In this document: positions 90-34,000 of the stretch, piece by piece
Position numbering within the stretch: the stretch's first letter is position 1
Layout: every line of letters begins with the position of its first letter
From: a virus
Strand: one strand, 5' to 3'
IMG/VR virus record: IMGVR_UViG_3300017706_000434
Location: 1 to 50,965 of that record
DNA length: 50,965 nucleotides
The notes under the pieces: generated by a model
The model's input: only the letters and a program-made list of their open reading frames with translations
The model's database searches: none
Told to the model about the DNA's origin: nothing
Translations under genes and position numbers: made by a program

Positions 90-286
90 TGAAGATAAGT
101 GATCGATTAGTAAACTACTTCAACAAGAAGAAGTCAAAGAGTTCTGACAAGAACCACACACGATATCGCAATGATATCTGCAATCACTGGGATTTAGATT
201 ATGTTTCAGTTGAGGAACTTGAAGAACTTCTCAAGCAAGACAACATAGAAACTACATTGCCTCGCAAGAAGAAAGATATCTATTAG
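89..286 (+). CDS. Hypothetical 65-aa charged protein
   Basis: I do not recognise this protein. It is 65 aa, with a Lys-rich N-terminal third (NKKKSKSS at about 12-19), an acidic patch (VEELEELLKQD at about 41-51) and a basic end (PRKKKDIY). No membrane segment is visible. It overlaps the preceding stop by one base (TAATG) and so is probably translationally coupled to it. Its stop (TAG, 284-286) overlaps the stop of the minus-strand tape-measure candidate (283-285), so the two genes converge with no room for a terminator. Real gene likely; function unknown. Confidence 0.6.
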   Translation: MKISDRLVNYFNKKKSKSSDKNHTRYRNDICNHWDLDYVSVEELEELLKQDNIETTLPRKKKDIY

Positions 287-1932
287 AAGCCTTGCTGTAC
301 AGGTAGATGTCCAGAATTTTTCAGGGAATTGCCACCGTTATTGATTATGTTGAATGTAGTACTTGAACCACCAACATTGGTAGAGTTAGTAGTATTGCCT
401 CCCTTAGCAACATTGATGTTACCGCCTCCATTAGCTAGAACAGCCTGAGTTCCTTCAGTCATTATAGACACTTTAGATGAGGAAGCATCAGATTGTCCAC
501 TACTACTAATTATACTTACATTGCCGCCACTTTCAGTCATGGTACCAGGAGAGCCTGATACTGAGACTTTAGACTTAGTTGCTCCTGATGGTTTACCATT
601 TCTGCGGTTCGTAGCACTTTTTACTTGACTAGGATCTAAATCATTACCGCTAAGAACTGCTTCAGCGATTGTCTCTGCTAAGTCTTCCCCTAAGATTGCT
701 CCGCCCGTCATACCGATTAGACCACCGATGAGACTGCCTACTCCAGGGAATATTCCAGTTCCAAGTGCCGTACCAGCTAGTCCACCGAGTGCTACCCCAC
801 CAACAGTTCCTAGTGCTCCTACAACTTGCTTCATGACCTCGTCAAATGGCTCTTCATTGTATATAGCCATTAGAGGATCGATAAGCGCAGGCACAACAGC
901 CAATGCAGGACCTGCAAATTTAAAGAACTTCGCATACTTCGCAACTTTAGCCAATCTACCTTCTGCCGCCATTGCTTTTGCTATATCATCAGCACTAGCA
1001 AATCTACCAGTATTGGCATGAATCATTCTTCCTGCACTGTTGACTCTCATACCGCTCGGCACACTTCCTGGTCTGACTGGCGGAGCTCCGGGTGCTCCTG
1101 CTGGTCCTGCGGCTGCTGGTCCGCTTACTACACTTTTAACAAGACCTCCCGCTAATGCCGCACCACCGGTCACCATCTTGAGTGCGAGTTTAGCTGTTCC
1201 AGTGATTGCTTTCTTGAGTAGCAATGGTACAAAGAGTCCTAAGGCAGCTCCAACAGCGGCTACTACACCACCAAGAGTTCCTTTATCCATGCCGTATTTC
1301 TCTAGAGTTTCTTCTGATATTCCATCAACTAACTTCTTACCCAAAACTCCCATAATTCCTGCAAAGAATAACGGAAGAATCGCCATTGGTCCGAACAACA
1401 GTCCACCGACAATAGCCATTATTCCACCAACTTTAATCATACCGCCATATTTCTCTGCGGCTTCTTTACCAAAAGCTTCTTCGATAACTCCATCAATAAG
1501 ACCACCTACGAAATCTACTATGATTGGAGCTATAATTGCTATACCTAAACCTTTTGTGATAAACTTAGCGATACCGCCTAAGTCTATACCCTTAACTTTT
1601 TCTGTAGCACCGCCAACACTATCACTCAATCTTTCACGAATAGATGGACTCTTTTCACCAGCTTGACTAGCTTGTTCACGCCTCTTCTCGGCTCTATCTT
1701 TACGTCTCTGCAACAATTCTTCAGCACTCGAAGACCTAGTAAAGTCTAAATTATCTTGGAATGTAGCAAGCATTGAACTGAAGACGCCATCATATCTAGG
1801 ATCTTCCATTGGCTCTGGAGCAGGAGCAGGTTCAGGTTCTGTTTTGTTAGCCTTCTTCTGCTCTTCGATTAACTGCTTGAGCAGATCGTTAGTTTGATTT
1901 TGAGCATCATTATTATTGTTGTTATCAGCCAT
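283..1932 (-). CDS. Candidate tail tape measure protein (gp29-like)
   Basis: 549 aa, close to T4 gp29 (about 590 aa). The N-terminus is polar and helical (DLLKQLIEEQKKANK), followed by a Pro/Glu linker and a charged helical stretch (about 65-110). Then come several hydrophobic Gly/Ala-rich segments (about 120-260), a second Gly-zipper hydrophobic block (about 365-425), and a Ser/Asn/Gly-rich C-terminus ending in a beta-like Asn-rich stretch. Helical start, glycine-zipper membrane-like blocks and a low-complexity end are typical of tape measure proteins, which fill the tail tube, set its length and enter the host envelope. It is the last gene of the minus operon, downstream of gp26 and its frameshift extension, where a tape measure is expected. 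The assignment rests on architecture and order, not on recognised T4 gp29 sequence; another membrane-active virion protein is possible. Confidence 0.55.
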   Translation of the reverse strand: MADNNNNNDAQNQTNDLLKQLIEEQKKANKTEPEPAPAPEPMEDPRYDGVFSSMLATFQDNLDFTRSSSAEELLQRRKDRAEKRREQASQAGEKSPSIRERLSDSVGGATEKVKGIDLGGIAKFITKGLGIAIIAPIIVDFVGGLIDGVIEEAFGKEAAEKYGGMIKVGGIMAIVGGLLFGPMAILPLFFAGIMGVLGKKLVDGISEETLEKYGMDKGTLGGVVAAVGAALGLFVPLLLKKAITGTAKLALKMVTGGAALAGGLVKSVVSGPAAAGPAGAPGAPPVRPGSVPSGMRVNSAGRMIHANTGRFASADDIAKAMAAEGRLAKVAKYAKFFKFAGPALAVVPALIDPLMAIYNEEPFDEVMKQVVGALGTVGGVALGGLAGTALGTGIFPGVGSLIGGLIGMTGGAILGEDLAETIAEAVLSGNDLDPSQVKSATNRRNGKPSGATKSKVSVSGSPGTMTESGGNVSIISSSGQSDASSSKVSIMTEGTQAVLANGGGNINVAKGGNTTNSTNVGGSSTTFNIINNGGNSLKNSGHLPVQQGF

Positions 1933-2388: not shown

Positions 2389-2556
2389 TTATTTTTGTCT
2401 TGTTTTTTGCTCTTCTACGAAATCGATAAGCATATCTACATACAAATCTCTTTCATATGGTAGCAAATTCTCTAATTCTGCTATACTATATTTATGATGT
2501 TGAGCCATTGAGAAGATTGTTTGATAATAATTTCCCAGACTGCTATGACTCAACAT
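2389..2556 (-). CDS. 55-aa frameshift extension of gp26 (tail chaperone T-like)
   Basis: This 55-aa frame (MLSHSSLGNYYQTIF... ending EEQKTRQK) starts with an ATG overlapping the gp26 stop (TAATG, at 2558-2554). It is in the -1 frame relative to gp26 and stays open back through a run of seven T at 2568-2562. A -1 slip on T TTT TTT would join gp26 residue 232 to Ser-Leu and then these 55 residues, giving a fusion of about 289 aa. No Shine-Dalgarno is visible before the ATG (the upstream bases are a pyrimidine run), which favours frameshifting over separate initiation. Residues about 24-45 resemble the small helical proteins found after tail chaperone genes. Independent translation by coupling cannot be excluded. 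Confidence 0.65.
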   Translation of the reverse strand: MLSHSSLGNYYQTIFSMAQHHKYSIAELENLLPYERDLYVDMLIDFVEEQKTRQK

Positions 2557-3257
2557 TAAAGAAAAAAAGTTTCAGTACCTTCTAGAGTAACTTCTTTCTC
2601 TTCACCCTCACTATTAATATACTTAGACTTGAATCTAAGCTTAGGCATAGTCTCGAAGAACTTCTGAAGAGCATCAATCGTGCCTCCAGGGAATGTTTCT
2701 ACGAAAGACATAACCTCATCTTTAGTGAAGTCTTTTAGTTTTTGTGTCTCATCGCCATTTACAACGCAATCAATGCAAGATATCATCACATCGAATAGAG
2801 ACTCTGTTGGACTCTCTACTACATTAAGAAACATACTGACTTCTTCGAGTCTTGGGTAACGCATCATCAAATACATATCATCCGTAACAACAATCTCTTT
2901 CGTATGTTCTTCGTCTATCACTATATCTACTTCATCGATATCTAGCTCCAATGCAACTGGATTATTTGTATCTGGATCAGTAATCGTGAATGAAACTTTA
3001 TTATCAATAGATTTTGCTCTGACCTGTAGCATAATATACTCTAGGTCAAACATAGGTAACTGGTCTATATCTATATTTGGACAGCAATTCGTAGCGATCT
3101 GCCTCATTGCTAGTACCATTTGATTTGGATCTTTTGACTCTTGAGCGACCAGAAGAATCTTTTCTTCTTTCACTGTAAAGGGTCTATACTTAACAGTCTC
3201 ACTAGTTGACGGTAAAGTTAATTCGAATAGAGGTAAATCTATTTTTGGTAAAGCCAT
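2556..3257 (-). CDS. 26: gp26-like baseplate hub assembly / tail chaperone protein
   Basis: 233 aa (T4 gp26 is about 208). The N-terminal pattern TVKYRPFTVKEEKILLVAQE (about 16-37) is characteristic of the T4 gp26 baseplate protein family. Start ATG is preceded by TAGGAGT. In T4, gp26 is needed for hub assembly but is not a major part of the finished baseplate, consistent with a chaperone. Here it ends on a T7 slippery run (2568-2562) followed directly by an overlapping -1 ORF, the arrangement of lambda G/GT-type tail assembly chaperones, and a tape-measure candidate lies downstream. I infer it coats or escorts the tape measure. It is 30 nt downstream of gp54. Confidence 0.8.
   Translation of the reverse strand: MALPKIDLPLFELTLPSTSETVKYRPFTVKEEKILLVAQESKDPNQMVLAMRQIATNCCPNIDIDQLPMFDLEYIMLQVRAKSIDNKVSFTITDPDTNNPVALELDIDEVDIVIDEEHTKEIVVTDDMYLMMRYPRLEEVSMFLNVVESPTESLFDVMISCIDCVVNGDETQKLKDFTKDEVMSFVETFPGGTIDALQKFFETMPKLRFKSKYINSEGEEKEVTLEGTETFFL
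2562..2568 (-). promoter_or_regulatory. Putative -1 ribosomal frameshift site
   Basis: On the minus strand the gp26 frame reads ACT TTT TTT CTT TAA. The seven-T run fits the X XXY YYZ slippery rule, allowing both tRNA-Phe to re-pair after a one-base slip. The stop codon lies one codon further on, which often promotes slipping. The -1 frame continues TCT TTA ATG into the 55-aa ORF without a stop. I did not identify a clear downstream pseudoknot by eye. Confidence 0.6.
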
Positions 3258-3287: not shown

Positions 3288-4049
3288 TTAAAATGATTCA
3301 ATTATGTTGTTTATGTTATTAATCTGATTCACTGCATCCTGTACACCGCTAGGCTTTGTTATGCTTTCTATCGTGTTGACTGCATTATTTATTGAAGAGA
3401 ACCATTTCAGTAATTTTCCTGTTGTCGATCCCGGTCTGTCAGACAGCACTGCACCAGTTCTTGCGCCAGTTAATTTCATCTCATCATAGGTGAATCCCAC
3501 AGGCAGTGTCATTACTTCACCGCCATTGCTCCAAGATGCCTCTATGTTGCCCACATTGATTGGATATAAACCACCGAACTCGTATACATATTCCACTGAT
3601 TTTGATCCGTGAGAGTATACTGCTACTTGCATTGTTGCTTGATAATCTTCTTTATATCCCATTTCGAATGGCAATTGATTATTGACTCCTGCAAATCTAC
3701 CACCACTTGTATCGTAGTTACACACTGCCTGAGACCATCTATGAAATAGTTTCATAACACCGAAATTAGAATCTACCATAAACGTAGCAGGTAATACAGG
3801 AAAGTTCATTCCTTGTGGTCTACGAACATTTGGTCCAAATCCCTGAGGCTGAACTTCTCCGGTATCTATCGCTATTTCGGGTAGAGTTACACCCTTACAG
3901 AAGAACTCCAGGTCTCTAACAATAGGAGATATACTCAACAACTCGTTAGTGATTGATTTGGGTAAAGTGATTCTAGCAAAGAATAGGTTATCTTTTGCTA
4001 CACCATGCTTGTTTAACTTCGAACTGAAGTCGCTTATATTGAACGACAT
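3288..4049 (-). CDS. 54: gp54-like baseplate tail tube initiator
   Basis: 253 aa, versus about 320 in T4 gp54. It begins MSFNISDFSSKLNKHG and contains a tail-tube-like pattern: LEFFCKGVTLPE (about 47-58), a GPNVRRPQG segment, and FMVDSNFGVMKLFHRW (about 90-105), typical of the tube/initiator family related to gp19 and gp48. In T4, gp54 binds the top of the baseplate with gp48 and starts polymerisation of the gp19 tube. Its start follows the previous gene's stop directly (TAA then ATG), so coupling is likely. A gp19 tube protein is the main alternative, but gp19 is usually shorter and lies next to the sheath gene gp18, which is not in this window. Confidence 0.65.
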   Translation of the reverse strand: MSFNISDFSSKLNKHGVAKDNLFFARITLPKSITNELLSISPIVRDLEFFCKGVTLPEIAIDTGEVQPQGFGPNVRRPQGMNFPVLPATFMVDSNFGVMKLFHRWSQAVCNYDTSGGRFAGVNNQLPFEMGYKEDYQATMQVAVYSHGSKSVEYVYEFGGLYPINVGNIEASWSNGGEVMTLPVGFTYDEMKLTGARTGAVLSDRPGSTTGKLLKWFSSINNAVNTIESITKPSGVQDAVNQINNINNIIESF

Positions 4050-4643: not shown

Positions 4644-4749
4644 TACGCACCTCTTTTTTACCCGCCTGTCTTTCTTTAGCTTTCAAACGCTTCTTCAATC
4701 GCTTTTCCCACGATTTACTTAAACAATCGACTTGCTCTCTCTTAGACAT
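4627..4749 (-). CDS. 40-aa basic protein
   Basis: ATG at 4749-4747 overlaps the thermonuclease stop (TAATG), and TGA is at 4629-4627, inside the next gene. The 40 residues (starting MSKREQVDCLSKSWEKRLKK, ending RNGSNI) are strongly basic and probably helical through residue 35, so nucleic acid binding is possible. The overlap with both neighbours suggests translational coupling from nuclease to this ORF to the gp2-like gene. It could instead be merely a ribosome relay or a spurious frame; no family is recognised. Confidence 0.45.
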   Translation of the reverse strand: MSKREQVDCLSKSWEKRLKKRLKAKERQAGKKEVRNGSNI

Positions 4750-5192
4750 TATAGCGTAACAATTCCTTCAGCGATTAATCGATCTCTATTAGCTAAATGT
4801 TGAGCATCAACATCGTCTTTTGATCCACCAAAATATGGCACAGCATGACCCTCTTCAACTAATATTTGAGTAGCTGGTCGCCATGCGTCAGTTGTAGCAC
4901 AATATACATCAAAGTCTCCAAGCACACGACCAAACTTACCACGCATATCTTCGCCTTTCTTGCTGATCTGCGTCTTTAATATTGGGTTCTTACCGAGTAG
5001 TGACTTTAGTCTTGCTTTAGCCGCTAATCCAAACTTCTTCTCAACCTTATCTCTCGTTCTTGATTCTGGTGTATCAATACCCATGATGCGTACACGCTCA
5101 TTATATAGCCAGATACCAAACCCTAAATCAATATCTACGTCTACTGTATCGCCATCAACTATCTTCACTACTTTTGTTTTATACTCATACAT
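4749..5192 (-). CDS. Thermonuclease (staphylococcal nuclease family)
   Basis: 147 aa, a single SNase domain. Visible hallmarks are DGDT (13-16), VRIMGIDTPE with R35, D40 and E43 at the positions of the classic catalytic Arg, Asp and Glu, and KFGRVLG with R89, matching the second catalytic Arg. All catalytic residues are therefore present, so an active Ca-dependent DNA/RNA endonuclease is expected. There is no signal peptide, so it works inside the cell or is packaged. It lies between gp4 and the gp2-like gene and has its own late promoter 28 nt upstream, suggesting a role in DNA end processing at head completion or late host DNA breakdown. Similar nucleases occur in marine T4-like phages. Confidence 0.9.
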   Translation of the reverse strand: MYEYKTKVVKIVDGDTVDVDIDLGFGIWLYNERVRIMGIDTPESRTRDKVEKKFGLAAKARLKSLLGKNPILKTQISKKGEDMRGKFGRVLGDFDVYCATTDAWRPATQILVEEGHAVPYFGGSKDDVDAQHLANRDRLIAEGIVTL

Positions 5193-31061: not shown

Positions 31062-34000
31062 ATGTCAAGCATAACAAATATAAACAACAATTCAAGTGTA
31101 GTAAACGTAGGTAGAACTACTCCGGTATCTCCTGGACCACAAACAGCAGATCGATCTATACCTGTTGTAATGGCCACAGACCAAACTGCCATCCCTGTAG
31201 AAGAACAGAATAAGGTACAGTCGGAAGTTGCTCTGTCGCTTTTGGGTATTCCTAGAGCAGAGGTTGCCTTAGGCATCTTCGCTGATGTTAACACTTATGA
31301 TGTTAACCCATCAGAGTGGTCTATGAAGCCAGAGTTTCATATTAACGGAGACGGAGTTAAGCATTTACCTACAGAAGCTGGTGCTCTTGTAGAGGCGACT
31401 AGAAACAACGTATCTGTACTAACATCAAAAAGGTTTTTCCGATATCAGCCAGGTCGTGTGTCAGCGGCCACATTTGGCGTTAAGTCTACCACTAGTGTTG
31501 CACATTTTGCTCAAAACCCTGTAATAAGAAAGTTTGGTATCTATGATAAGTATGATGGATATTACTGGGAAACTAGAAATAGTGGATTAGAAGATAATTT
31601 CTCTGTAGTTCGAAGAACTCAGTCAGTAGCAAATTATCCTGTCAGTCCTTACGGTGTAGCAGGAGCAACTCCTCTTAGAGGAGAATCAAGCACTGTTCAG
31701 TTCGTACCTACTACACAGCTAGATGATTATAGATGTGTAGGATACGGACAGAGCGAGTCTGAAGTGTCAGAGGGCAGTTTTGTTTCAGATAGAAAGGTGT
31801 TAACTGAGAATCGATATGAAATCATAGATAATGTTTTAGGCTATGTTGTTGCTAATTATACCACTAGTGGAGCACAAACAACTACTGATGGTGGCGCTTA
31901 CACGGCAACCGGTAGTTACTATAACGATTTGTCTCTTGCCTTGGCCGCTGATGGTGTAACACTTAGTGCTGGCGAAGTAGAAGCCAAGTGTAAGCGAGAT
32001 TTAGACTACTGGATGGACAACTATATTCTTGATTTGAAGCATGATAGTACTGCTCATACACAGCTTAATAGAACAAACTTTGCATTATCTGACGGATCTG
32101 GAGACTGGGATGCGACAGGCGTAGGACTATTTCCTAAGATACAGCATTTTGAAGAACCTGTACATAAGGCAATACGAGAAGTATTTACCGATGGCCAACT
32201 TTATAATACTAATAATAGTGATGTAGTTACAAACCCAACGGGCGATAGTTTAGGCCTTACTGCTCCTGGTATAACAAAGCTAATTGCTCTTTCTACCATA
32301 ACGTATGAAGGATTTGATGACGGCTCTGGAGTATTTGACGCTGGTAATCCAACAGAAGCATTAATAAAAAGCACAACCGGCACATCATTTGGCGACAAAG
32401 ATCCTTTAGAAACTTTCTTTGACGTTAAGAAAAATTTCTGGGCATACTATGTAACTACCAAAAAAATAGATACGACAACATCAGTGGTTTATGCTGATCC
32501 TGGTGCTGGTCCTAGTTCTGCACTGGGCGCAACTTCGCAAGAAAGAAAGACTAATATTAGATACAAGTGTCAGCGTGATGTTGGATATATTATCGATGGA
32601 TTCAAAAACGACATACTTGGTGGCGGTAACGCAGAAACGACTTACAATGCATCTATGTTTGTTAGAGGTACTGGATTATCAGTATACTCTCAAGAAGATG
32701 GTGGATCGTTAAGCGAACCTTTAAGACACGAACACCTTCGTCTTAGAATACAAAACGATTTAAAAACTTACGGCTATCCTGCTCTCAGCGATCAGTATGT
32801 TAAACTAACCTCGCTTTCTAACAAGATTATCGATAATTTTGGTAGAGAGAATATACAGTCTATGCAGACAGGTAAAAGAGGGTTTGCTGGAAACTTGGTT
32901 GCTATGCGAGACGGACTACTTCACGTTCATGCTGGAGCATATGATCCATCCTTGCTTAAAGACCCTAAGAAGACAAAGGCAAAAGTTACAGCAGAAACTA
33001 CAGCCGCTTCAACTTTCAGCTTAACTGAAGGCATAGTTACCTTTGGACAACACGTTAAGATATCTTGGAAAGGTAGTGCTAGTGATATCACATTGAATAA
33101 TGGCGTTGATGTAGATAAGAATCAAGTTTTACTTGTTAAAACTGTATATGGTCCTAAAGGCAACGAGTTCACTCTTGTTGTTCCCAATACTAGTCCAGAA
33201 GAAGTCATAAGCTTCAGTCAGGCTGATATAAACACTGCTGATACTATCTACATAGACACTGTTGTGCCGTTTATTTTCCCTAAAGATTATGACGTTGAGA
33301 ATCTTAACGGATATGAATCAAGTATAGATACTACTCCAGGAACAGTCACTCTTGATGCTAGTTCTCCTGGTGATGCTTCAACTCATAGAGTACTTAACAC
33401 AAAAGACTCTACTTGGGACATTCAAAATATTCCTAGAGGCGCTGTATTCCCATATATGTACGCTAAAGACGACAATTTGACAGGTACATTCTATGCTGAT
33501 AATGAGTACGCAGGCTTTGTAAACACAGCGATTCAGCCTACAGGTAACTCGAATCTAGATTTAAATATTATTCGCTCTCAGATTGACAACGTAAACTTCT
33601 TTCCAGAGTATGTTAATTGGGTTAAGAATAATGTCAAACCAGAGTACTATGGAGTATACGAATATCGTGTTCCTAGATCTCGGTTCTCGCATGATTCTCT
33701 AGATGGTATAGATCCTTCAGTAGAAGGCGCACCCCTCAAAACTGCAGGCGCTAAAGGAGTAAGAAACAGAGTATATAGTGATCTTGCTACTGGTGTTGCC
33801 GGTACAGTTAGACCAGGTGAAAACTATGTTATTAATGTAGGTCAGCCTGAGAAGCAATCTAGCTTATATGACTTCGACTTCACTAAAGTAACGATGCTTA
33901 AAGTAGAGTTTTCGTGGTACGGTGCTGTTGGTGCATTGTTCCTAGCATATGTTCCAGTAGGTAACGGAGAAGCTAGATGGGTACGAGTACATCACCTAAG

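Follow-up and report, generated by a model that had tools for sequence, protein, structure and literature searches.

Conserved slippery site and flanking RNA signals point to programmed -1 frameshifting of gp26, a probable tail assembly chaperone gene, in T4-related phages

The gp26 gene described here most probably encodes a tail assembly chaperone and is decoded by programmed -1 ribosomal frameshifting, a reading to which we assign a probability of about 0.88. What we infer is that ribosomes slip here, at what rate, and that the products act as chaperones. The DNA examined (the window) is the whole 50,965-base viral contig IMGVR_UViG_3300017706_000434. Its minus strand carries, in order, a tail-tube-like gene, gp26, a 55-aa ORF (2556-2389), a 107-aa ORF (2378-2055) and a 549-aa ORF (Table 1), and each family occurs in a single copy on the record. 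The gp26 gene is thereby placed between a tail-tube family upstream and a weakly matched tape-measure candidate downstream, the latter already picked out in a preliminary description of this DNA, with only the 107-aa ORF intervening. The corresponding tape-measure match is stronger in S-PM2 (phrog_9570, 5e-21). The 107-aa ORF contains an EF-hand-like loop (DTNGDGQVSKQEE) followed by two hydrophobic stretches and is conserved in locus L001; its match to Pfam EF-hand_5 (9.7e-4) is below the cut-off. The structural cluster also holds a 147-aa ORF (4749-5192, minus strand) that by eye is thermonuclease-type (SNase)-like.

Table 1. Features of the gp26 region, in coordinates of the window.
Feature	Position	Strand	Evidence
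gp26, short product, 233 aa; proposed short tail assembly chaperone	2556..3257	-	ORF; PF12322 T4_baseplate 1.1e-53; phrog_150 3.6e-59; aligns to last residues of T4 gp26
Shine-Dalgarno-like GAAGG; proposed upstream frameshift stimulator	2578..2582	-	Ends 9 nt 5' of heptamer; position common to most relatives
Slippery heptamer T_TTT_TTT, gp26 register	2562..2568	-	Conserved in relatives
5' arm (ATGTTGAGTCA) of 11-bp stem, 5 nt 3' of heptamer; includes ATG of 55-aa ORF	2546..2556	-	MFE vs synonymous shuffles; covariation
3' arm (TGGCTCAACAT) of 11-bp stem; 38-nt loop separates the arms	2497..2507	-	Pairing and covariation
-1 frame extension of gp26, 57 codons + stop; C-terminal gp51 domain	2389..2562	-	phrog_634 'baseplate hub assembly catalyst' 1.7e-23; collinear with T4 gp51 C-terminus
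Tape-measure candidate, 549 aa, likely client	283..1932	-	Weak match to phrog_794 tail length tape measure protein, 2e-6; order repeated in L001
Tail-tube-like protein (gp54/gp19 type), adjoins gp26 upstream	3288..4049	-	phrog_45 tail tube 2.1e-36; Pfam Phage_TTP_2 1.6e-7

The gp26 reading frame ends in GAA ACT TTT TTT CTT TAA, in which the seven T residues, one codon before the stop, provide T_TTT_TTT in the X_XXY_YYZ register needed for -1 slippage. A one-base backward slip at this site reads T-F-F-S-L-M and continues through TCT TTA ATG in the frame that the 55-aa ORF occupies. Both the run and the open -1 frame had been pointed out in the preliminary description, and both are present, with the run in register. 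Besides the run at 2568, the window has a single TTTTTTT, at 32466 and also on the minus strand.

The preliminary description had proposed an alignment of relatives, looking for loss of the run or for a 55-aa frame out of register, and the outcome was favourable in 165/165 IMG/VR loci and 15/15 isolates. In a first IMG/VR search, all 80 of 80 loci had an in-register T_TTT_TTT or T_TTT_TTC together with an open -1 frame, and the +1 frame shut within 28 codons. The same in-register heptamers were found in 85/85 IMG/VR loci retrieved in three later searches with the S-PM2, phiAS5 and PhiW-14 gp26 proteins as queries, and in every one of the 15 isolate phages tabulated. The heptamer is common to the Aeromonas phages of Straboviridae and to phages of Stenotrophomonas, Delftia and Rhizobium. 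From the window, the IMG/VR loci and the isolates we assembled a non-redundant set of 65 sequences less than 88% identical to each other, of which 53 have T_TTT_TTT and 12 have T_TTT_TTC. All 65 have T as the base 5' of the Phe codon pair, contributed by ACT, AGT, TCT or GAT. Given the synonymous codon usage of each gene, the joint probability of T_TTT_TTY in 65/65 is ~10^-42, a value that assumes independence; since relatives are not fully independent, the p-values given here are optimistic. Because T_TTT_TTY is kept in register across 65/65 relatives, chance is excluded, and conservation of the putative slip site is confirmed as real and far beyond chance. A conserved X_XXY_YYZ heptamer in the zero-frame register, one mark of a programmed -1 ribosomal frameshift site, is thus present.

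The sole departure among the tandems examined was the more distant Vibrio phage K469 (L083:4660-4760), in which a gp26-like gene overlaps a small second ORF as TAATG and the run is CTTTTTG. This junction may be either another slip site or a case of coupling.

The run of T residues could also join the two frames if the polymerase slipped on it, producing mRNAs of altered length. The window has seven T, and T8 is found in 3/105 sequences, as might suit such transcriptional slippage, but in 52/105 the run consists of six T followed by C, which disfavours polymerase slippage and keeps -1 re-pairing of tRNAs. The SD-like element and the stem described below are, moreover, stimulators of a ribosomal event. 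We consider transcriptional slippage exceedingly improbable and, on account of the six-T runs and the ribosomal stimulators, rejected it as the main mechanism.

All 65 non-redundant sequences have an open -1 extension, 54-66 codons long. In four of the 65, a -1 stop codon stands immediately 5' of the heptamer, so that entry into this frame must be at the slip site. A different route to the gp51 part would be translational coupling, in which ribosomes stop at the TAA and restart at an overlapping ATG, yielding a free 55-aa gp51. The window has such an overlap (TAATG), from which a certain amount of gp51 might additionally arise on its own, and roughly half of the relatives have an ATG near the junction. 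However, ATG is absent from the first six -1 codons in 34/65 sequences, and ATG, GTG and TTG are all absent in 18/65, including Aeromonas 65.2, P-SSM7 and Melnitz-3; in a second set, 14/40 sequences have no start codon of any kind near the beginning of the -1 frame. A start codon kept throughout, the mark of a translationally coupled gp51 gene, was thus not found in this frame. As had been noted earlier, the 55-aa ORF has no SD; none is at initiation distance from its ATG, and the closest run of purines, GAAGG, has its end 21 nt upstream. The ATG in the window is also buried in the conserved stem, T4 gp51 is a single fused chain, and coupling alone gives no reason for T_TTT_TTY, or its spacing from the SD, to be conserved. 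Coupling is therefore very unlikely, and was rejected as the main mechanism because start codons are absent in many relatives.

Programmed -1 frameshifting commonly involves stimulators, defined as an upstream SD at 9-14 nt and/or a downstream structure, and candidates for both are found here, in addition to what the preliminary description had observed. Upstream, the heptamer is preceded in 57/65 sequences by GGAGGG, GAGGG, GAAGG, AAGGG or AGGG, with its end exactly 9 nt away, and an SD-like element is at the same place in most of the second set as well. This spacing falls inside the range of 9-14 nt reported for SD stimulators of -1 frameshifting (review, PMC5009743). Among 60 five-codon windows along gp26, the SD-like site has the strongest predicted anti-SD pairing and exceeds the synonymous null (p = 3.6e-7). 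The excess over what synonymous codons would give is largest there and in the two windows that overlap it, while the remainder of the gene is mostly neutral toward, or avoids, anti-SD pairing. The GAG:GAA ratio at the site is 34:19, compared to 378:922 gene-wide (p = 3e-7).

Downstream, an 11-bp stem begins 5 nt 3' of the heptamer, with 2556-2546 pairing with 2507-2497. Folding of the 60 nt from +5 gave a mean z of -3.8 against dinucleotide shuffles and -3.5 against protein-preserving shuffles, compared to 0.04 for a control region. In 57 sequences, the stem positions were paired in 91% of cells, against 25-48% in slid controls, and 51 cells had two-sided changes, against 22 in shuffles. Covariation is clearest between a Leu TTG/CTG and a Gln CAA/CAG position, both synonymous, where T-A was counted 26 times and C-G 25 times. 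RNAalifold by itself gave a weak consensus of -1.6 kcal/mol, because several outer pairs are broken in some sequences; the tests that proved informative were counting the pairs directly and comparing with protein-preserving shuffles. Taken as putative stimulators, the SD-like element and the stem are shown by these sequence statistics to be under selection. The stem was not seen in its exact register in S-PM2, P-SSM7, Melnitz-3 or the Aeromonas phages. Different hairpins occupy this place in the S-PM2 group, with a mean z of -2.5 against synonymous shuffles and -1.2 for its own control region. In this group (L111-L190), T_TTT_TTC and the SD-like element are kept and the hairpins differ, as though a new stem had taken the place of the old. 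A search of Rfam returned no match, and no description of either the SD-like element or the covarying stem was found in the literature searched, which did not extend to Vladimirov et al. 2022.

A close known parallel to this arrangement is the E. coli dnaX signal, which likewise combines an SD-like element, a slippery heptamer and an 11-bp stem (PMC5009743). The dnaX heptamer is A_AAA_AAG, whereas here it is U_UUU_UUU/C, and the loop here is 38 nt; the shift lengthens the protein here and shortens it in dnaX. A further parallel is the tail chaperone of the Vandenendeviridae phage Adele, reported to have a poly-T slip into the -1 frame and a hidden C-terminal part (PMC12846349). These properties are common to both, although Adele belongs to another phage family and its slip motif is GTTTTT.

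The products of the proposed frameshift correspond to a pair of T4 proteins. A profile of fusion proteins matched T4 gp51 end to end (240 columns, probability 97%, E = 4e-11), and the short form matched T4 gp26 up to its last residues (E = 9e-9). In T4 gp51 itself, PF12322 covers residues 1-201 and phrog_634 matches the C-terminal part; correspondingly, the PF12322 core is found here in both forms and phrog_634 at the C-terminus of the long form, as in the T4 gp26/gp51 family. With the fusion matching gp51 and the short form matching gp26, the phage appears set up to make by frameshifting the 26/51 pair of T4, to which its short product and frameshift product are homologous. In T4, genes 26 and 51 are separate, on opposite strands and without a slippery site at the end of gene 26, whereas here there is one gene and a frameshift. 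The arrangement with a separate, full-length gp51 was found in more than 1,300 phage records. Another layout of the pair is seen in Klebsiella phage RCIP0002 (L110:2501-3795), which has gp51-like and gp26-like genes separately, in tandem on one strand.

The preliminary description had proposed gp26 as a tail chaperone made with a -1 frameshift, and this is supported by the collinearity with T4 gp26/gp51, by the gene order and by the fold comparison. The gp26 structure was predicted with a pLDDT of 84, and the best superpositions of the model were on 3fgx (Z 8.0) and, in second place, on the HK97 tail assembly chaperone 2ob9 (VIA Z 7.2 over 82 residues), with the next unrelated row at 4.7; these Z values are in the range about which the tool warns. 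Both matches are confined to the N-terminal ~90 residues of gp26, of which ~85 superpose on the HK97 protein. Foldseek of the model against the PDB gave no significant match (best E 0.55), and for this reason the fold match is suggestive, not proof. No tail chaperone was listed when a T4-type gp51 model was compared to solved structures, and gp26 had no significant sequence match to a Pfam tail-chaperone family.

As in the lambda G/GT type (with HK97 gp14), short and long forms would be made by a frameshift ahead of the tape measure gene; judged by sequence, the short form and an N-terminally identical long form share one start. Compared to that type, gp26 here is longer (233 aa) and has an added domain. 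Judging from homology, from the order of the genes and from a fold match that is modest, gp26 and the fusion are likely tail assembly chaperones. The historical T4 naming and present database labels would instead make gp26 and gp51 structural proteins of the baseplate hub, with the frameshift merely setting their ratio in the hub. We regard this as unlikely, in view of the gene order, the fold resemblance and the chaperone role attributed by the title of Vladimirov et al. 2022, a paper that reportedly names T4-like tail assembly chaperone genes. The earlier statement that T4 gp26 is usually described only as a hub protein is accordingly outdated. That paper appears already to report both a tail assembly chaperone role for T4 gp26/gp51 and poly-T slippery sites among T4-like phages, and the idea of a frameshifted chaperone is itself not new. 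Literature searches on gp26, gp51 and frameshifting turned up no other direct treatment.

In the mechanism that we propose for the frameshifted chaperone, most ribosomes would stop at the TAA and release gp26, the short form. A fraction would be held at T_TTT_TTT between the SD-like sequence, paired with 16S rRNA, and the 11-bp stem; both Phe tRNAs could re-pair with TTT TTT after slipping back by one base, and the shifted ribosomes would read 57 more codons to give a 289-aa gp26-gp51 fusion, the long form. By analogy with lambda G/GT, it would be the short form that coats the tape measure protein, and the long form that brings in tail-tube subunits.

Frameshifting would also account for gaps in the annotation of gp51. 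In cyanophages, gp51 was reported to be cut to about 20% of its length, and in Aeh1 to be missing (PMC3037559). Public annotations start gp51 16-33 codons late in P-SSM7, S-CAM3, S-RIM2, Melnitz-3, phiAS5 and IG49, and gp51 is unannotated in Aeromonas 65.2, Asswx_1 and Aeh1. In Aeh1 (L193/L196), a gap in the annotation comes directly after gp26, and there a -1 extension with a phrog_634 match (1.1e-13) follows T_TTT_TTC. The "truncated" gp51 of cyanophages and the "missing" gp51 of Aeh1 would thus be explained by an N-terminal part that gp26 supplies via the shift. It follows that databases miss or truncate frameshifted gp51.

We slightly favour a history in which the frameshift is ancestral in the T4 superfamily, and T4-type phages swapped it for a gene duplication that gave gp26 (short) and gp51 (long); elsewhere, the three-part RNA signal would have been kept, with the stem rebuilt from unrelated sequence from clade to clade. 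Frameshifting and separate genes would then offer a natural comparison of two routes to one protein pair. The chaperone reading would give a concrete job to two "hub" proteins whose labels, across hundreds of genomes of marine phages, are a legacy of T4.
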